A stretch of 64,000 nt of DNA, taken from assembly GCF_030296935.1 (NCBI RefSeq), contig NZ_AP028032.1:2666001-2730000 (forward strand). Reading direction: 5' to 3'. Shown here piece by piece: positions 43,146-51,903 of the stretch. Numbering within the stretch: position 1 is the stretch's first letter; each line of letters begins with the position of its first letter. The DNA is from Coprobacter fastidiosus. GTDB taxonomy: Bacteria > Bacteroidota > Bacteroidia > Bacteroidales > Coprobacteraceae. The notes beneath the pieces were generated by a model. It was not told where the DNA came from and did not search any database. It worked only from the letters and a program-made list of their open reading frames with translations. The position numbers and the translations under genes are program-made.

Positions 43146-43218
43146 GGTGCCATAGCTCAGTTGGTAGAGCAAAGGACTGAAAATCCTTGTGTCCCCGGTT
43201 CGATTCCTGGTGGCACCA
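43146..43218 (+). tRNA. tRNA-Phe (anticodon GAA)
   Basis: The acceptor GGTGCCA pairs with TGGCACC, the anticodon stem is AAGGA/TCCTT with loop CTGAAAA (anticodon GAA), and the T-loop reads TTCGATT. It is 73 bases long with discriminator A. Its last 22 bases are the left boundary of a genomic island whose right boundary repeats them. Confidence 0.97.
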
Positions 43219-43222
43219 CTTT
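43197..43222 (+). other. attL of the tRNA-Phe island
   Basis: GGTTCGATTCCTGGTGGCAC plus CACTTT, which regenerates the tRNA-Phe 3' end. It matches attR except for one base (C here, T in attR, in GGCAyCAC). Confidence 0.8.
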
Positions 43223-43350: not shown

Positions 43351-43384
43351 TGGAAAATATAAAGCCCGTTGCCCCACTATTATA
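43351..43384 (+). repeat. Left terminal inverted repeat of the IS21 element
   Basis: The segment matches 45955-45988 in inverted orientation at 33 of 34 positions. Confidence 0.85.
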
Positions 43385-43478
43385 TTCCCAATTGATCCAT
43401 CAAAAAACATTGGATTTATGAAAAGAAAAATGCATTTTAACCCGGGTCAGTTTTAGTTATAATTATCTACCACAGATG

Positions 43479-44258
43479 TTACTTCTTTTTGGCATTTATT
43501 TTTCTTACAGAATCTCCAGTAAGTTCAATCTTGTGTGCAGAGTGTACAATTCTGTCCAGTATTGCGTCAGCTACGGTAGGATCACCAATTGCATCATACC
43601 AACTTTCGACAGGAAGTTGTGATGTTATTATGATTGATTTTAGTCCGTGCCTGTCTTCTATTATTTCCATAAGGATCGACCTTTCCTTTGCGTCCAACCC
43701 AATAAGAAACAGATCGTCAAGAATCAACAGTGGGCACTTTTCAATTTTTTTCATCTCAGATTCTATTGTACCCTTATTTTTGGCCATTTTAAGATGTCCC
43801 ATAAGCTTTGATGCATTGGAATACAACGTCTTGACTCCATTTTTACACGCTTCATATCCTATGGCTGAAGCCAGGTAGCTTTTACCAGTTCCAGAGCTGC
43901 CTGTTATAAAAATATTCTGTCCGTCTCTTATAAAATCAAGAGAGGCAAGTCTTTCGAGCTGATTCCGGTCAAGGTTACGTTTTATTGTATAGTCTATTTT
44001 CTCCATATATGCCTTATATCTGAAGTTTGCAGACTTTATCAGTCGTTCAATGCTTACATTGCGCCTGTAATCATTCTCGCTTTCTAGAAGCCATTTAAGA
44101 AACTCATCATTTGTCATACCATCTGAAGATGTAGTCCTGCAGTCGTTTCTGTATGTTTCAAGCATACCGTAAAAACGTAGCTTGGAGAGTAGTTCCATTA
44201 TTCTGTCCATATTTTTTTCGACAGTTCTATTTGTCTTATTATTACTTGTCATTTTCAT
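43479..44258 (-). CDS. istB: IS21 helper ATPase
   Basis: The protein has 259 residues from Met 44258. The frame extends further upstream but inside istA, and homologous IstB proteins start near SNNKTNRTVEKNMDRIMELL. It has the AAA+ Walker A GSSGTGKSYLASAIG, Walker B LLILDDLFLIG and the IstB C-terminal HSAHKIELTGDSVRK. IstB assembles at target DNA and recruits the IstA transposase. The start overlaps the istA stop by 17 bp, so translation is coupled. Confidence 0.93.
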   Translation of the reverse strand: MKMTSNNKTNRTVEKNMDRIMELLSKLRFYGMLETYRNDCRTTSSDGMTNDEFLKWLLESENDYRRNVSIERLIKSANFRYKAYMEKIDYTIKRNLDRNQLERLASLDFIRDGQNIFITGSSGTGKSYLASAIGYEACKNGVKTLYSNASKLMGHLKMAKNKGTIESEMKKIEKCPLLILDDLFLIGLDAKERSILMEIIEDRHGLKSIIITSQLPVESWYDAIGDPTVADAILDRIVHSAHKIELTGDSVRKINAKKK

Positions 44259-45807
44259 CACTGTTTTTAGAGTTAAAATAATCCTTACCTCTGAGATTTT
44301 TATGTTTAGGAGTAAGCTCAGGGACCTGTCTCTCCATTTGGACATGATACTTTTCATCTTCCCTGTTTATCAGAATGCTTTCAATTTCGTTGTATCCAAA
44401 CATATTGGATTCCATTGCTATCTGGTATGCAAGAACCAATCTGTCGCGCCCAAAACGTTCCACAAGACTTAATATGTCATCGGATGAACGTACGGCTTGA
44501 ATCGGATATTTTTTGGCAACGGCCACTAGTTTTATGTACTCTTCCACTACCGAATCGATTTCACGTGCCTTACGGTATATATCATCCATTCTACTTCTAC
44601 ATTCATGTAGTACTCCCGGAAGTTTATGGGACTGTTTTTCTGAATAAGTAAAAGGTGTATCATCCCTGCGATGTGTCGTTATATGTCTGAATTTATGATA
44701 TATTTCCACTGTGTCCCCATCATACAGCAATTCTACAGTATCGCCGATATACTCTTTGGGGACACTGTAATAGTGATTGTTAAGCGAGACATAACTGTTT
44801 CTCATGCCAGTCGCCGTTTTCCGGTTTTTTGATATAAACCTTGTAGCGGGCAAAGTGTGCAGCCTGTCTTTCTCGACTTCGAGGAAGCGCTCCCTGCGGC
44901 TGTAACTGCGGTTGTACATCTTTCGGTTGTTCAACGCATCTGTATGTTTTACAATCTCTATGTTCAAGGCTTCAAGGTCATTGAACTTCAATCCCATCAT
45001 CTTTGAATAGACCTCCCTATAGAGCAATCTTACAGCATTCTCAACCAAGGCCTTGTCTTTTGGTTTACGTACCCTTGCCGGAAAGACAACACAACCGTAA
45101 TGGTCTGCAAATGCAGCAAAGTCATCATTGATTACAGGTTCAATCCCTCCGGGCTTTATTACGGCAGACTTGAGATTGTCGGGAACTATAGCATTAGGTA
45201 CACCTCCAAAATAATGGAAAGCATTTTCACATGCCTGGATAAAATATTCTTTCTTCTGCGATGGTACAGCCTCATAATAAGTAATCTGACTGCACGGAAG
45301 TATGGCAGCAAAAACTTCTACGGGAACCTTATCACCTGTCTTTTCGTCTGAAAGATAAAGTTTGTCACCGGCAAAATCCACATACATCTGATCACCGGCT
45401 ATATGATCTATGCGCCCAACGGGTACTTTTACTTCTCTTTCACGTCTGAGATATAGGCAAAATGAACAATAGCTGTAACCTTGAGGACGATTTTTCAGAT
45501 ACTCCTCATACAAGAACCTTCTTGTTGTTCCACGAGATTTAAGTCGTTTAAGGTACTCAGGTATATGTTCTTCAAGATACTTATACTCTGCAGATCTGGC
45601 TGATGCATTATCAATATCTACACCGAAAAGTTCATGCAGATGCTGTTCGTCCATTTTTAACAGGCGCTCCAGTTCTATACCCATATCTTCATATATACGG
45701 ATATACCGTTTGACTGTATTTCGTGAAATCAGAAGAGAAGAACTGATACTTCGGATACTCATTCCTGACTGATAGCAACGAAGGATGTGTTTGATTCTTA
45801 TTTTCAT
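44242..45807 (-). CDS. istA: IS21 transposase
   Basis: The protein has 521 residues: an N-terminal helix-turn-helix (MSIRSISSSLLISRNTVKRY, 16-35) and a DDE integrase core with D144 (YVDFAGDKL), D210 (IVPDNLKS) and E256 (KDKALVENAVRLLYREVY), then a C-terminal beta domain (YYSVPKEYIGDTVELLYDGD). All three catalytic residues are present and the frame is intact, so the element may be active. Confidence 0.95.
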   Translation of the reverse strand: MKIRIKHILRCYQSGMSIRSISSSLLISRNTVKRYIRIYEDMGIELERLLKMDEQHLHELFGVDIDNASARSAEYKYLEEHIPEYLKRLKSRGTTRRFLYEEYLKNRPQGYSYCSFCLYLRREREVKVPVGRIDHIAGDQMYVDFAGDKLYLSDEKTGDKVPVEVFAAILPCSQITYYEAVPSQKKEYFIQACENAFHYFGGVPNAIVPDNLKSAVIKPGGIEPVINDDFAAFADHYGCVVFPARVRKPKDKALVENAVRLLYREVYSKMMGLKFNDLEALNIEIVKHTDALNNRKMYNRSYSRRERFLEVEKDRLHTLPATRFISKNRKTATGMRNSYVSLNNHYYSVPKEYIGDTVELLYDGDTVEIYHKFRHITTHRRDDTPFTYSEKQSHKLPGVLHECRSRMDDIYRKAREIDSVVEEYIKLVAVAKKYPIQAVRSSDDILSLVERFGRDRLVLAYQIAMESNMFGYNEIESILINREDEKYHVQMERQVPELTPKHKNLRGKDYFNSKNSDENDK

Positions 45808-45954
45808 ACTTAAAAAATATTTGGTAAATTATACCGGGTTAAAATGCTTTTTAATGTACAAAAACAAGAGTAAAATAAGATGTCTCTATAGGGTCAAATT
45901 CTATTATAATCTCAATGGAGCAGTTTAGATTATAAAGGTGGGTCAATAGACTTT

Positions 45955-45988
45955 TATAATAGTGGGTCAACGGGCTTTATATTTTCCA
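45955..45988 (-). repeat. Right terminal inverted repeat of the IS21 element
   Basis: It pairs with 43351-43384. A second partial copy of its inner GGGTCAAyrGrCTTT motif lies just inside, at about 45938-45953, as is usual for multi-repeat IS21 ends. Confidence 0.85.
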
Positions 45989-46051: not shown

Positions 46052-46264
46052 ATGGAAACAGCAAAGATAAACAGATTAAAAATAGTATTGGTAGAACAAG
46101 GCAAGACAGGGAAATGGCTGGCTGGACAGTTAGGAAAGAACGAGGCAACCATTTCCCGGTGGTGTTCCAATGTAAGCCAGCCTTCTTTGGAAATGCTAAT
46201 GAAGATAGCATCCATATTAGACATTGATGCAAGACGATTGATTGACAACGGAAAAGACGAATAA
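46052..46264 (+). CDS. Small Cro/XRE-type helix-turn-helix regulator
   Basis: The protein has 70 residues from ATG 46052. The helix-turn-helix reads GKWLAGQLGKNEATISRWCS (about residues 19-38), followed by the hydrophobic core SLEMLMKIASILDIDARRLI typical of the HTH_3 family. The methyltransferase gene follows after 5 bp. Small regulators of this kind (C proteins) time the expression of restriction-modification genes; here that role is inferred from position. The leader from the nearest promoter would be very short. Confidence 0.85.
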   Translation: METAKINRLKIVLVEQGKTGKWLAGQLGKNEATISRWCSNVSQPSLEMLMKIASILDIDARRLIDNGKDE

Positions 46265-46269
46265 AGAAT

Positions 46270-47316
46270 ATGGCAAAAAGGACTATAGATAAAGCTAAAG
46301 AAGCAAAAAAGGACGAGTTTTACACTCAACTTGAAGATATTAACAATGAACTGCGGCACTATCGTGAACATTTTCGCGGTAAAACGGTACTGTGTAATTG
46401 CGATGACCCACGTGTAAGCAACTTCTTTACTTATTTTGCTTATAACTTTGAGTTTCTTGGACTGAAAAAGTTGATTACTACTTGCTATAAAAATCAGAAC
46501 ATGGATTTGTTCAGCCAGAACAAAAGCGAACAAGCCGTATATTTGGTATATGAGGGGGACAAAAACGGAGACCATATCCCAACAGCCGATGAAATAGGAG
46601 TACACCCCTTAAAAGGCGACGGTGACTTCCGAAGCAAGGAATGTATTGAACTTCTCAAAGAAGCAGATATTGTGGTAACGAACCCACCCTTTTCTTTATT
46701 TCGTGAATATGTCGCACAATTGATGGAGTATAAAAAAGAATTTTTGATTATCGGTCATCAAAATGCATTATCATATAAAGAAATATTTCCATTGATTCAG
46801 AATAATAAAATGTGGTTAGGATACGGATTTAAAGGAGGCGCAGGACATTTTATTTCAAAATATGAAGATACAGCAACAGCAAGCAACCACAAGCAAGGAA
46901 TGATAAGAGTTTCAGGTGTAACGTGGTTTACTAATTTAGACATAAAGAAACGTCACGAAGATATCATATTATTTAAATTATATTCTCCAGAAGAATATCC
47001 TCATTATATAAATTATGATGCTATAGAAATATCGAAAACAGAATTTATACCAATGGATTATGACGGCATAATGGGAGTTCCTATTACATTCATGGATAAA
47101 TATAACCCAGAACAGTTTGAAATTATTGGCATTGGAAATGGTGGAGAATTAGGTGTCGCATGTGGAGTAAGTTCAAACTTAACAAATGCTGAATGCGAAC
47201 AATTATTTAAAGAAGATAAAAGTTTTAGAAGAGGAAAGCTATGTTATCGAGATAAAAACGGGGAATTAATAGGTTGTTATGCTCGTATTTTAATAAGAAA
47301 AAAACAACAATTATGA
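46270..47316 (+). CDS. EcoRI-family adenine-specific DNA methyltransferase
   Basis: The protein has 348 residues. It matches the EcoRI methylase family: KKDEFYTQLEDINNELRHYR, LCNCDDPRVSNFFTYF and the catalytic motif IV VVTNPPFSLFREY (NPPF at 138-141). It would methylate adenine in a specific site using S-adenosylmethionine. The stop overlaps the next start in ATGA (47313-47316), so production is coupled to the DUF262-HNH protein, which is the likely partner nuclease. No gene resembling the EcoRI endonuclease itself is present. Confidence 0.9.
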   Translation: MAKRTIDKAKEAKKDEFYTQLEDINNELRHYREHFRGKTVLCNCDDPRVSNFFTYFAYNFEFLGLKKLITTCYKNQNMDLFSQNKSEQAVYLVYEGDKNGDHIPTADEIGVHPLKGDGDFRSKECIELLKEADIVVTNPPFSLFREYVAQLMEYKKEFLIIGHQNALSYKEIFPLIQNNKMWLGYGFKGGAGHFISKYEDTATASNHKQGMIRVSGVTWFTNLDIKKRHEDIILFKLYSPEEYPHYINYDAIEISKTEFIPMDYDGIMGVPITFMDKYNPEQFEIIGIGNGGELGVACGVSSNLTNAECEQLFKEDKSFRRGKLCYRDKNGELIGCYARILIRKKQQL

Positions 47317-48422
47317 AAATAGAATTACAGTCCATAAAAATAGCGGACCTAATTGACGGTTATATAAACGACCCCGAAACAGGGGTAAAAGGGTTTCATG
47401 GAAAGTTGGACATTCGTCCGCCTTATCAGCGCGAGTTCCGTTATGATGAAAAGCAACAGCAAGCCGTTGTTGATACCATTCTTAAAGGCTTTCCACTCAA
47501 TATCATGTATTGGAGTGCAAATGCTGACGGTAATTTCGAAATGATAGACGGACAACAGCGCACCCTTTCAATATGCGGATTTTACACCCACGATTTTAAT
47601 ATCATTGACCCTGACCGAGGTACACTCTATTTCTCCACTCTTACGGATGAAGAAAAAAACAAATTCCTTAACTATGAGTTGACGGTTTATTTCTGTGAAG
47701 GAACAGATAAGGAGAAACTTGATTGGTTTCGTGTAATCAACATTGCAGGAGAAAAACTTCTTGACCAAGAATTGCTGAATGCCGTTTATGCCGGACCTTT
47801 TGTAACAGATGCCCGCAGGCATTTTTCAAAGAACGGATGTCCTGCTTATAAGATGGGAGCCGATTTTTTGAGCGGTAATGCCATAGAGCAGGCATATTTG
47901 GCTACTATCTTGAAATGGGCGGCTCGCCATGACGGTGTGGAAAGCATCGACAAGTATATGGCTTTGCACCAGTTTGACCCTAATGCCAATAAACTTTGGG
48001 CTTACTTTGTATCTATTATCACTTGGATACGTTCAACCTTTACCAAATACCGCCGTGAGATGAAAGGTTTGGATTGGGGAGCCATGTATGATGAGTTTAG
48101 TGAAAACGTATATGATACGGTCGTCCTCGAAAAGCAGATACACGATTTGATGGAGGATGATGAAATCATGAAGAAGTCCGGCATCTATCGCTACGTGCTG
48201 AGCGGCGACCTGCGCGACCTCAGTTTCCGCACTTTCGACAAGAAGCAGAAACGCGAAGCCTATGAGCGGCAGCACGGTATCTGTATTCATTGCGGCAAGC
48301 ACTTTGAATTGGAGGAAATGGAAGCTGACCATATTACGCCTTGGAAAGAAGGCGGTACGACTGTGGCGGGAAATTGCCAAATGCTTTGTAAGAATTGTAA
48401 TAGAATTAAAGGAGGAAAATAA
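47313..48422 (+). CDS. DUF262 and HNH endonuclease domain protein
   Basis: The protein has 369 residues from ATG 47313. The N-terminal DUF262 domain (ParB/sulfiredoxin-like NTPase fold) shows IRPPYQREFRYDEKQQQ (34-50) and DGQQR (79-83). The C-terminal HNH nuclease reads HGICIHCGKHF, EADHITPWKEGG and CQMLCKNCN, with zinc-binding CxxC pairs. The same combination of domains occurs in GmrSD/BrxU type IV restriction enzymes, although those use DUF1524 or variant HNH ends. Coupled to an adenine methyltransferase, it is the likely cutting part. Confidence 0.88.
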   Translation: MKIELQSIKIADLIDGYINDPETGVKGFHGKLDIRPPYQREFRYDEKQQQAVVDTILKGFPLNIMYWSANADGNFEMIDGQQRTLSICGFYTHDFNIIDPDRGTLYFSTLTDEEKNKFLNYELTVYFCEGTDKEKLDWFRVINIAGEKLLDQELLNAVYAGPFVTDARRHFSKNGCPAYKMGADFLSGNAIEQAYLATILKWAARHDGVESIDKYMALHQFDPNANKLWAYFVSIITWIRSTFTKYRREMKGLDWGAMYDEFSENVYDTVVLEKQIHDLMEDDEIMKKSGIYRYVLSGDLRDLSFRTFDKKQKREAYERQHGICIHCGKHFELEEMEADHITPWKEGGTTVAGNCQMLCKNCNRIKGGK

Positions 48423-48424
48423 GT

Positions 48425-49558
48425 ATGAATTGTCAATTTTGTGGACAGGAATTACCTGAAAATGCCAAGTTCTGTTTTAAGTGTAGAAGACAAATTATTT
48501 GTATGAACTGTGGAGAAAGGCTTATTGAAGGAGCTTCTATATGTGTTTTTTGCGGAAATGAAATAAGCATACCAAACAATAATATTGAACAGAATCATAT
48601 AAAATACAAAGAAACAAAAACTTTAAAATCATTTGAAGCGACATTTTCAAATGAAACTGCGGGTGCTGTAGCCAAAACATTCGCACAATTTCTTCCTCTG
48701 AAAAAGAATATTATTGGTGATACGAAAGAAATTTTTCATGATACACAAATTGAAGATGTAGAAGATATAACGCCTGCCAAAGCTTTACTTCCTGTAAAGC
48801 AGGAAGAATTAGCTGATAAAAATCCAAATATTAATGATATATTCAAAGTACGAGGAGACAATGATATATATTTGCATGAAACAAGCTTAAAAGCCAATAG
48901 CAAAGTTGATTATGCGGGGCGATTAACAATACTGTATTTATTTTATATGCAGTCAAATGGAACTACTGAAGTTCCCAAAACAGAAGTAATTGCTTTTTTG
49001 AAGAAAATAGGTTTCAATAATGATGGAAATTATCGCGGTTGGATGTCCAAAATGAAAGCTTTATATAATATCAACAATAATTGCTATTGTCTATGTAGAG
49101 CTGGAGAAGAACGTGCAAAAGAATATCTTAAAGATATTTTTGATGGAGACAAAGTTGATAATTGGAAACTCGGAGATACTTCAAAGGGAAATTATAGATT
49201 TAACAATAAGGCAAACAATATTCCAAAGAACTCTTATTCAATAGAAGGCTCTTTGAATTTAAATCCTTCAGATAATGAGTCTCTTAAATCTTTTATAGGG
49301 AAATTCAAAGCTTCAAATGGTTTTCAATACAATTTATTATTTGCATATTACTTACAAAAAGTTATTGGCAAAACTAATATTAACGCAAATCACATATATA
49401 CGTGCTATAAAAATGTAGGGGTGAAAATACCAAATAATCTATATCAAAGTCTTGTTGATACAAAAAATAAGAAGGGGTGGATAGATACCTCAGATATGAA
49501 TAATATAACGGTTACAATAAGTGGTGAAAATTGTGTAGAACAAGATTTGAAGAAATGA
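48425..49558 (+). CDS. Double zinc-ribbon protein with winged-helix-like repeats
   Basis: The protein has 377 residues. The first 43 hold two zinc ribbons (cysteines 3, 6, 17, 20 and 26, 29, 40, 43). A variable polar linker follows, then two domains of about 80 residues (about 155-240 and 285-370) that look like winged helices (SKVDYAGRLTILYLFYMQ... ; NGFQYNLLFAYYLQKVIGKT). The second resembles the N-terminus of the next protein. It is very AT-rich. I do not recognise the family. Position suggests a nucleic-acid-binding part of the cassette; it starts 2 bp after the nuclease and overlaps the next gene by 4 bp. Confidence 0.75.
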   Translation: MNCQFCGQELPENAKFCFKCRRQIICMNCGERLIEGASICVFCGNEISIPNNNIEQNHIKYKETKTLKSFEATFSNETAGAVAKTFAQFLPLKKNIIGDTKEIFHDTQIEDVEDITPAKALLPVKQEELADKNPNINDIFKVRGDNDIYLHETSLKANSKVDYAGRLTILYLFYMQSNGTTEVPKTEVIAFLKKIGFNNDGNYRGWMSKMKALYNINNNCYCLCRAGEERAKEYLKDIFDGDKVDNWKLGDTSKGNYRFNNKANNIPKNSYSIEGSLNLNPSDNESLKSFIGKFKASNGFQYNLLFAYYLQKVIGKTNINANHIYTCYKNVGVKIPNNLYQSLVDTKNKKGWIDTSDMNNITVTISGENCVEQDLKK

Positions 49559-50304
49559 TGACATTAGAAGAATTTATTATTAGAATTGACAACTTTCTAT
49601 CTTTGAAATCCTCTGAACAAATTCCGTATTTTGGATATTATATTTTGAAATACCAAAATAAAGAATCTTTTACAGCCAAAGAGATCGAAAAATGTTTTGC
49701 AGAAACTCACATTACACCTTATAGCAACATTTCGGCATATCTCTCGAAAGAAAAGAAAGCTAAACATATGTTATCTCATAAAAACGGAGGATATATTCTA
49801 ACTAGAACCGTTGAAAATCAAATATCTAATACCATAGGAGAAGTAAAGGTGAATGAACCATCTGGGAATTTATTTCCCCTTGAGTTATTTAATAACACAC
49901 GCACATATTTGCAGAAAACAGCTAAGCAAGCTATATTATGTTACGATTATCAAATATATGACGCTTGTTTGGTTATGATTAGACGATTGATAGAGACTTT
50001 GATAATAGAATTGTATGAACGATTTGAGATAAAAGAGCAAATACAAGATACAAAAGGGAACTATTTGTTTTGTTCTGACTTAATAGACAGGTTATTATCT
50101 GAGAAAAAGTTATGGACAATCGGTCGCAATTCAGCTAAAGCTCTCCCTGATATTAAAACAAAAGGCGATTTAAGTGCACATAATAGACGATTTAATGCAA
50201 TTAAAACTGATATCGATACTATTAAGGTTGGTTTGAGAGTAGTTTTAGAAGAACTTGTCCATCTAATAAACTATGAACAGTGGAATGCTAGCAAAAAAAA
50301 GTAA
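49555..50304 (+). CDS. DUF4145/HEPN-like protein with N-terminal winged-helix-like domain
   Basis: The protein has 249 residues from ATG 49555, which overlaps the previous stop (ATGA). Residues 1-85 resemble the winged-helix-like repeat of the preceding protein (FTAKEIEKCFAETHITPYSN, then KNGGYILT). Residues 110-245 are all-helical: AKQAILCYDYQIYDACLVMI, RRLIETLIIELYERF, then KTKGDLSAHN before the last helix. That pattern is like DUF4145 and HEPN-type proteins, several of which are toxins or RNases in defence systems. The assignment is by eye. A strict R-x4-6-H motif is not clear. Confidence 0.65.
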   Translation: MMTLEEFIIRIDNFLSLKSSEQIPYFGYYILKYQNKESFTAKEIEKCFAETHITPYSNISAYLSKEKKAKHMLSHKNGGYILTRTVENQISNTIGEVKVNEPSGNLFPLELFNNTRTYLQKTAKQAILCYDYQIYDACLVMIRRLIETLIIELYERFEIKEQIQDTKGNYLFCSDLIDRLLSEKKLWTIGRNSAKALPDIKTKGDLSAHNRRFNAIKTDIDTIKVGLRVVLEELVHLINYEQWNASKKK

Positions 50305-50308
50305 GTAT

Positions 50309-51691
50309 ATGCTAACCGAATCTCAAAACATAGAATTCAAAGAGTCTTGGCGCGACGAATACCAGAAATGGATTTGTGGTTTTGCCAATGCACAAGGCGG
50401 TATCCTTTATGTGGGCGTAAAGGATAATGGCGAGGTGTGCGGTGTGCATGATGCCAAGAAACTGATGGAAAACATTCCGAACAAGGTGCGCGACATGATG
50501 GGTATCTTGTTGGATGTCAATCTGAAAGAGAAAGACGGGAGGGCTTATCTGGAGATTGTGACGGAGGCTTATCCTTATCCCGTCAGTTTCCGTGGCAAGT
50601 ATTATCAACGGAGCGGTGCGACCAATCAGGAACTGAAAGGGGCGGCACTCGACCGCTTTATGCTTCGTAAACAAGGAAAGACATGGGACGGTGTGCCTGT
50701 ACCTTATCTGAAAGCGGAGGACTTGGACAACGCCACGTTTGATTTGTTCCGCAAGTATGCCAAACGGAGCGGACGCATGGAGGAAGCGGACTTAATGGAC
50801 GATAATCATGGACTGTTGGAGAAGCTCCGACTTTATGAAGGCAGTTACTTGAAACGTGCTGCTGCCTTACTATTCCATCCCGACCCGGAAAAGTATGTGA
50901 CCGGAGCGTTTGTAAAGGTCGGCTTCTTCCGTGAAGGTATGGATTTGGTGTATCAAGACGAAGTGCATGGCAATCTGTTCCAGCAAATTGTGAAGTTAAT
51001 GGACTTGCTGTGTACTAAATACATGAAAGCCGTCATTACTTACGAAGGCATCCATCGGATAGAGACATTGCCTATACCTCGTGAGGCGCTGCGTGAGGCG
51101 TTATTGAATGCTTGCATCAACAAAGACTATGCAGAACCTTCTCCCATTCAAATCCGTGTGTATGAAAACAAGTTGGAGATAATAAACGGTGGAGTATTGC
51201 CCGAAGGTTGGACTGTGGAAACCTTATTGTCCTCACATCGGAGTATGCCTTACAACCCTGATATTGCCAATACGTTCTTCCGTGCAGGTGAGATTGAGGC
51301 GTGGGGGCGCGGCATCGAGCGTATTATTATGGCTTGTAAGAATGACGGATTCTCCACGCCGGAATTCCGTTATGATGCTTCGGGTATCTGGACAACGTTC
51401 AAGTTTGAATACCCGGAAAGGGCTACGACCCAATACGACCCAGAAACGACCCAAAAGAACGACCCAGAAACGACCAGAGACCGACCAGAAACCGACCAGC
51501 AAAAGCAAGAAAACGTCATTCTTGAACTAATTAAAGAGAATCCTTATATACAAAGAAAAGAATTAGTAAGTCGCTTAGGCATACATGAAAGTAGCGTAAA
51601 ACGTCGGTTGGCTTCACTCCAAAAAAAGGGGATAATCAGACATGTCGGTCCGAATAAAGGCGGTTATTGGGAAGTCCAAAAAGGATTTTGA
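50309..51691 (+). CDS. AlbA_2 (Schlafen-like) DNA-binding and ATPase-like protein with C-terminal winged helix
   Basis: The protein has 460 residues from ATG 50309, 4 bp after the previous stop (the frame extends 36 bp further upstream into that gene). Residues 1-130 are an AlbA_2 domain (ESQNIEFKESW, CGFANAQGGILYVGVKDNGE). Then comes a COG2865-type GHKL-like domain with PREALREALLNACINKDY and EAWGRGIERI, then a Thr/Pro/Asp-rich linker with repeated DPETT, then a helix-turn-helix (QRKELVSRLGIHESSVKRRL). Such proteins are regulators or defence factors. The GC content is clearly higher than in the two genes before it, so it may have been acquired separately. Confidence 0.85.
   Translation: MLTESQNIEFKESWRDEYQKWICGFANAQGGILYVGVKDNGEVCGVHDAKKLMENIPNKVRDMMGILLDVNLKEKDGRAYLEIVTEAYPYPVSFRGKYYQRSGATNQELKGAALDRFMLRKQGKTWDGVPVPYLKAEDLDNATFDLFRKYAKRSGRMEEADLMDDNHGLLEKLRLYEGSYLKRAAALLFHPDPEKYVTGAFVKVGFFREGMDLVYQDEVHGNLFQQIVKLMDLLCTKYMKAVITYEGIHRIETLPIPREALREALLNACINKDYAEPSPIQIRVYENKLEIINGGVLPEGWTVETLLSSHRSMPYNPDIANTFFRAGEIEAWGRGIERIIMACKNDGFSTPEFRYDASGIWTTFKFEYPERATTQYDPETTQKNDPETTRDRPETDQQKQENVILELIKENPYIQRKELVSRLGIHESSVKRRLASLQKKGIIRHVGPNKGGYWEVQKGF
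51422..51505 (+). repeat. Short tandem repeats coding the protein linker
   Basis: Units of about 10-16 bases based on ACGACCCAGAAACGACC are repeated five or six times with drift. They encode the DPETT-like linker of the AlbA_2 protein and could change length by slippage. Confidence 0.65.
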
Positions 51692-51877: not shown

Positions 51878-51903
51878 GGTTCGATTCCTGGTGGCATCAC
51901 TTT
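51878..51903 (+). other. attR of the tRNA-Phe island
   Basis: This is a direct repeat of the tRNA-Phe 3' end (GGTTCGATTCCTGGTGGCAT then CACTTT), one mismatch from attL. It is the remnant of the original tRNA end displaced by integration. Confidence 0.8.

Follow-up and report, generated by a model that had tools for sequence, protein, structure and literature searches.

Which nuclease serves a methylase of the M.EcoRI family in a genome without an EcoRI-type endonuclease, and which of the two partners would decide where DNA is cut? This question was raised by two adjacent genes of Coprobacter fastidiosus, here termed M and R (Table 1), that lie in the window, the whole stretch of 64,000 nucleotides that was analysed. 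M matched the EcoRI_methylase family (PF13651) with 456.5 bits over residues 6-345 (curated cut-off 26.4) and the PADLOC model MTase_II with 379 bits over nearly its whole length, and was 50% identical to M.EcoRI of E. coli pCol-4. Motif IV was intact, residues N138-P139-P140-F141 being invariant among 33 relatives. A fold search with the predicted model of M returned nothing at E 0.001 or better, and the model was poor at the two variable segments described below (block-mean pLDDT about 35-60 across much of both) and too weak for placing them on DNA.

The start of R was set at the ATG at 47313, compared to a TTG start and 382 aa in the mechanical list of open reading frames, and its stop codon ends at 48422. 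The protein combines a GmrSD_N/DUF262 domain at residues 34-159 (PF03235, 67 bits) with a C-terminal HNH domain at residues 324-367 (PF01844, 50 bits; PF14279 also matched), and the PADLOC model REase_II matched it over its full length with 407 bits. Its catalytic motifs are intact. Among 185 relatives, the DGQQR motif, which corresponds to the NTP pocket in GmrS/SspE according to PMC10952713, was invariant (185/185), D339, H340, and N354 were kept in at least 184, and N363 was kept in 177. The predicted model of R (pLDDT 89) had BrxU (7p9k) as its best fold neighbor in the PDB, followed by ParB with CDP, HNH nucleases, McrA, and, weakly, SspE. We know of no nuclease activity for any member of the DUF262-HNH family.

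Table 1. Positions in the window of the methylase-nuclease pair, its motifs and segments, and the surrounding island.
Feature	Position	Strand	Basis
3' end of tRNA-Phe, left copy of att-like direct repeat	43197-43222	+	repeat comparison
IS21-type element	43351-45988	-	family from ORF pair
Xre-type HTH gene, just upstream of M	46052-46264	+	HTH_3
M, M.EcoRI-family adenine methylase, 348 aa	46270-47316	+	PF13651 EcoRI_methylase
Methylase motif IV TNPPF, residues 137-141	46678-46692	+	NPPF invariant in relatives
Segment 1 of M, variable (residues 184-218); candidate target-recognition module	46819-46923	+	alignment with relatives
Segment 2 of M, variable (residues 287-336); candidate for a second such module	47128-47277	+	alignment with relatives
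R, DUF262 (GmrSD_N) + helical middle + HNH, 369 aa	47313-48422	+	Pfam
DGQQR, nucleotide-pocket motif of DUF262	47547-47561	+	relatives and PMC10952713
HNH domain (C324, C327, D339, H340, N354, C359, C362, N363)	48282-48413	+	PF01844
Zinc-ribbon protein, island cargo downstream	48425-49558	+	Pfam
DUF4145 protein, island cargo downstream	49531-50304	+	Pfam
AlbA_2/HATPase protein, island cargo downstream	50273-51691	+	Pfam
Right copy of tRNA-Phe 3' repeat	51878-51903	+	repeat comparison

A preliminary description of this DNA had read the locus as an EcoRI-type methylase coupled to a DUF262-HNH protein, which was confirmed: both frames are intact and overlap by ATGA (47313-47316), the TGA stop of M running into the ATG start of R. 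The same overlap had been taken as a sign of fixed stoichiometry, a reading that was given up because it was present in just 32 of about 90 loci, which suggests translational coupling instead; elsewhere among these loci the spacing ranged from -35 to +19 nt or a gene was inserted, near-contact being common and not universal. The pairing itself is obligate. The genome, a single contig of 3.44 Mb, holds one copy each of the methylase and the DUF262-HNH family, and in a sample of DUF262-HNH relatives from 80 genome contigs, representing at least a dozen phyla, and 80 viral contigs, a methylase was present in 79/80 and 78/80 loci, respectively (157/160), the three loci without one all beginning at a contig edge. 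A survey of 395 genomes spread over the phylum found the methylase in 20 and DUF262-HNH in 16, all 16 inside those 20 (hypergeometric p 4e-25). The pair also occurs on finished plasmids of Bacillota, Actinomycetota, and Pseudomonadota, and no natural fusion of M and R was found in the sampled loci. It is already catalogued as a putative Type II system (PADLOC; REBASE names), and no PMC paper linking DUF262 with an EcoRI methylase was found in the open-access literature.

The Flavobacterium phage vB_FspS_laban6-1 (L012) carries methylase and DUF262-HNH as a pair. Whole genes lay between M and R in L030, L031, L036, L010, L065, L078, L020, L017, and L037, giving the junction a hotspot-like appearance; the inserts, named by eye, were Fic-like, BRO/Rha-like, ATPase plus RloB-like, and others, and a hidden R.EcoRI was sought among them and rejected, none being there. 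In an Enterococcus dispar plasmid (L007, pK205-4b-C) the optrA resistance gene sits between methylase and nuclease. In a Lactiplantibacillus plantarum plasmid (L097), which is without DUF262-HNH, the M.EcoRI-like methylase lies within one 700-codon frame whose annotation is dcm, a cytosine methyltransferase.

The absence of an EcoRI-type nuclease, noted earlier from the letters of the locus, extended to the whole 3.44 Mb genome, in which PF02963 had no match. The accompanying idea that DUF262-HNH stands in place of the EcoRI-type nuclease proved to be the wrong way round: DUF262-HNH, not R.EcoRI, is the usual partner of the M.EcoRI-like methylase family, with 16 of the 20 methylase genomes in the survey holding the former, two R.EcoRI, one an orphan methylase, and one a decayed copy.

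In M, an otherwise conserved scaffold is interrupted by two hypervariable segments, the first covering the position of M.EcoRI residues 186-225. With types defined at 60% identity, 34 segment 1 types and 77 segment 2 types occurred in 123 combinations among 156 loci; the segments are modular. The segment 1 type of M was common to 33/163 loci, its segment 2 type was seen in no other sampled locus, and neither was the EcoRI type. Similarity in segment 1 was uncorrelated with similarity in segment 2 (r = 0.04), and the nuclease tracked the methylase scaffold (r 0.53) and, with the scaffold allowed for, hardly either segment (partial r 0.05 and 0.07). Discrete types were well conserved in very distant loci, the segment 1 type of M being 72-89% identical across loci whose R fell to 41% identity, and for this reason the segments cannot be regarded as unconstrained or as products of drift. 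About 60 changes of segment 1 type were counted along the R tree, and codon-level DNA identity dropped sharply at each segment and recovered after it.

Beside these shuffled segments the nuclease stays constant, an asymmetry that is the new result of this analysis. Three loci (L031, L034, and L036) combine R proteins 98-99% identical (4-6 differences per 369 residues) with three unrelated pairs of methylase segments. Between L061 and L162, R differs at four residues (99% identity), segment 1 has been replaced (28%), and segment 2 is 100% identical, while two systems within one genome (G212; L121 and L138) share R at 97% and the methylase scaffold at 90% with segments 1 and 2 at 22 and 11%. The pair described here and its relative in L019 have R 94% and segment 2 12% identical. 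Of 13 pairs sharing at least 90% identity in R, 12 differed in a segment, and in the clade of the C. fastidiosus pair a single nuclease column, with no cluster, followed segment type. Systems with R.EcoRI served as control: all pairs among seven R.EcoRI-paired methylases (21/21; R 58-92% identical) kept both segments at 0.6 or more, compared to 23/5935 DUF262-HNH pairs in that range of R, counts that stand as a contrast and not as probabilities, the loci not being phylogenetically independent. Chimeric metagenome-assembled genomes were rejected as the cause of the swaps, as finished isolate plasmids show the same pattern; R is 83% and segment 2 is 16% identical between plasmids of Gordonia amicalis and Rhodococcus ruber, and between those of Pseudarthrobacter and R. 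ruber R is less similar (79%) and segment 2 is 88% identical.

From their position, the behavior of their types, and their conservation in EcoRI systems, the segments are putative target-recognition modules. Both follow the catalytic motifs, and segment 2 sits where gamma-type methylases have their target-recognition domains. For M.EcoRI, Tyr204 (mature numbering) has reportedly been photo-crosslinked to DNA, and this residue (Y205 counting Met) would fall in segment 1. Near-identical R proteins beside unrelated methylase segments indicate that R probably lacks a matching sequence specificity and is led by the methylase. Were the methylated sequence set by the segments, an R with a fixed site would kill its host after a segment change, and a constant R is therefore expected to be directed to its target by the methylase, by way of a complex or of the mark.

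The favored reading, with a probability of roughly 0.55, is methylase-guided, nucleotide-gated HNH cleavage that follows a Type I/III-like logic, the methylase alone setting the specificity of both activities. M would methylate an adenine at a site that it reads through its exchangeable segments, each of the two probably recognizing one part of that site. The DUF262-HNH protein would be a general restriction partner without matching specificity, brought or licensed by contact with the methylase at unmethylated sites, where nucleotide binding or hydrolysis by DUF262 would turn on the HNH nuclease and lead to cleavage. As the DUF262 domain of SspE and BrxU is a nucleotide switch (PMC10952713, PMC13251355), a similar switch may be expected in R. 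The preliminary description had offered a true restriction pair or a type IV-like enzyme; the former gained from the obligate pairing and the spread over at least a dozen phyla, plasmids, and phages, the latter lost with a methylase in every complete locus, and neither covered the option favored here, a nuclease that has no matching specificity and depends on the methylase.

Guidance by the methylase is opposed by L039/L040, in which R is 94% identical beside methylase scaffolds that are just 56% identical, and by the scaffold columns separating DUF262-HNH-paired from R.EcoRI-paired methylases, which number two and revealed no obvious docking patch on M. A tolerance of R for very different scaffolds and a methylase without a visible docking patch would suit the rival that survives best, although it is unlikely, namely that DUF262 senses host 6mA or its absence in a sequence-neutral manner and licenses the HNH domain without any complex with M. 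In SspE, whose DUF262 likewise carries DGQQR, recognition of the mark leads to GTP hydrolysis and licenses the HNH domain (PMC13251355, PMC10952713), and the SspABCD-SspE system resembles the pair in that its effector joins a DUF262 NTPase to HNH and relies on a modification encoded by neighboring genes. Its modification is a phosphorothioation at the fixed motif CPSCA, whereas the pair has a 6mA methylase whose motif must vary; in addition, a nuclease that judged DNA by sparse 6mA would have to scan for it, and a protein of 369 aa shows no evident mechanism for this. No sspABCD genes lie beside R, the adjacent genes coding for the HTH protein, the methylase, and the zinc-ribbon, DUF4145, and AlbA_2 proteins.

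A conventional Type II system, distinctly improbable in our estimate, would have R recognize one fixed site in all members, with every methylase variant covering at least that site. Its annotation as Type II by PADLOC and in REBASE style (PMC5608340) and the good conservation of R across phyla are in its favor, as is L078 (Rickettsiales), where both segments are of the EcoRI type, so that GAATTC is the predicted specificity, and the partner is nevertheless DUF262-HNH. All segment types in all of their combinations would then need a common site, near-identical R proteins stand beside unrelated segments, and the control systems that are truly Type II keep both segments.

L078 also bears on the origin of EcoRI. 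In a tree of 81 methylases, a quick one sampled mostly via the nuclease and with the root not inferred, the R.EcoRI-paired methylases formed a single branch nested in the DUF262-HNH-paired ones, beside L078 (SH-aLRT 98-99), and the unbiased survey of 395 genomes agreed in that DUF262-HNH was the common partner. Replacement of the partner is the likeliest route to EcoRI suggested by these sequences. The EcoRI system shares with the pair a methylase of the same family and, through L078, both segment types of M.EcoRI; it differs in its PD-(D/E)XK nuclease, unrelated to DUF262-HNH, in its gene order (R then M, compared to M then R), and in that its methylases keep segments that the DUF262-HNH-paired ones shuffle. 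A Rhodococcus pyridinivorans plasmid (L235) has a gene for a longer DUF262 protein 3' of a true R.EcoRI/M.EcoRI pair.

For the pair itself, GAATTC is probably not the specificity, because its segment 1 type differs from the EcoRI type and its segment 2 type is seen nowhere else. Site avoidance was dropped as a guide to the target: in a 460 kb sample of its own genome GAATTC was only mildly low (observed/expected 0.68, rank 7 of 64 palindromes) and not distinctive, and depletion was far stronger for CTAG (0.13) and CATATG (0.18). A possible parallel is Pin25611FORF1345P of Prevotella intermedia, described in 2017, in which a methylase 51% identical to M.EcoRI is followed downstream by a 1104 bp R gene (367 aa) (PMC5608340); this size matches DUF262-HNH and, on size alone, makes membership of the family probable. 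GAATTC was predicted for that pair but found unmethylated, and inactivity was proposed (PMC5608340); a different specificity is an alternative, and the unmethylated GAATTC is consistent with both.

A Type IV enzyme cutting modified phage DNA, with the methylase merely an incidental or protective neighbor, is very improbable. R does resemble GmrSD and BrxU, the latter its best fold match, in the ParB/Srx-fold DUF262 domain, the invariant DGQQR, and the C-terminal HNH-type nuclease. Those enzymes, of about 580 aa compared to the 369 aa of R, have DUF1524 as nuclease domain, and PF07510 (DUF1524) had no match in R at E 0.01, its HNH belonging to PF01844. GmrSD and BrxU work without a cognate methylase, whereas R is always coupled to a 6mA methylase; every complete locus examined holds one, for which an unrelated Type IV enzyme would have no need.

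In behavior only, the pair resembles Type I/III systems: its two putative recognition segments, matching HsdS in number, can be exchanged, and its restriction subunit is constant; it has no HsdS, Mod, Res, or HsdR homologues and no SF2 helicase-nuclease subunit, and unlike in those systems its recognition segments lie inside a single-chain methylase. More tentatively than the mechanism favored above, these features may define a distinct restriction-modification class, in which one methylase chain, carrying two half-site readers that can be exchanged independently, would act as specificity subunit to a small DUF262-HNH nuclease that is constant and switched by nucleotide, and classical EcoRI would be an offshoot that fixed one segment combination (GAATTC) and exchanged the general nuclease for a dedicated one. 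Where a site is asymmetric and methylated on one strand, such a system would have to act across two sites or by sliding, as the ParB-like fold hints.

The genomic context points to mobility. Two 26-base repeats of the tRNA-Phe 3' end, with one mismatch, bound an island of 8.7 kb; inside it lie the IS21-type element, the HTH gene, the pair, and three cargo genes, and no integrase is evident there. The IS21-type element has terminal inverted repeats at 43351-43384 and 45955-45988 (97% complementary) and transposition ORFs at 43479-44357 and 44242-45807; it ends 64 bases 5' of the HTH gene, and its insertion may affect expression of M and R. None of the neighbors qualified as a part of the system: the HTH protein was rejected as a conserved controller (C) protein with a relative in just one other locus, the zinc-ribbon and DUF4145 genes were in no related locus, and relatives of the AlbA_2 gene occurred only in L019 and, weakly, in L017. 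The system was absent from all four congeneric genomes searched. As part of the best explanation, and held with the same confidence, the pair would be a mobile defense module on this island in tRNA-Phe. Least probable of all is a different main role, for instance as an addiction module or in controlling plasmids that enter the cell, to which restriction would be subordinate, as the att-bounded island and the frequency of the pair on small plasmids and phages might suggest; addiction arises as a side effect of any ordinary restriction-modification system, and such a role leaves the segment shuffling unexplained.

To our knowledge, freely exchangeable specificity with a nuclease that follows is a property of large Type I, III, and IIG enzymes and not of a pair of Type II size. 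If the favored reading is true, it would be realized among these methylases in a small two-gene module, and the target choice of a compact restriction system would be programmable through segment exchange. It would also provide a handle on the reading of modification state by DUF262 nucleases and an account of the origin of EcoRI that can be tested. For annotation, methylase homology alone would be insufficient to assign GAATTC to such pairs.
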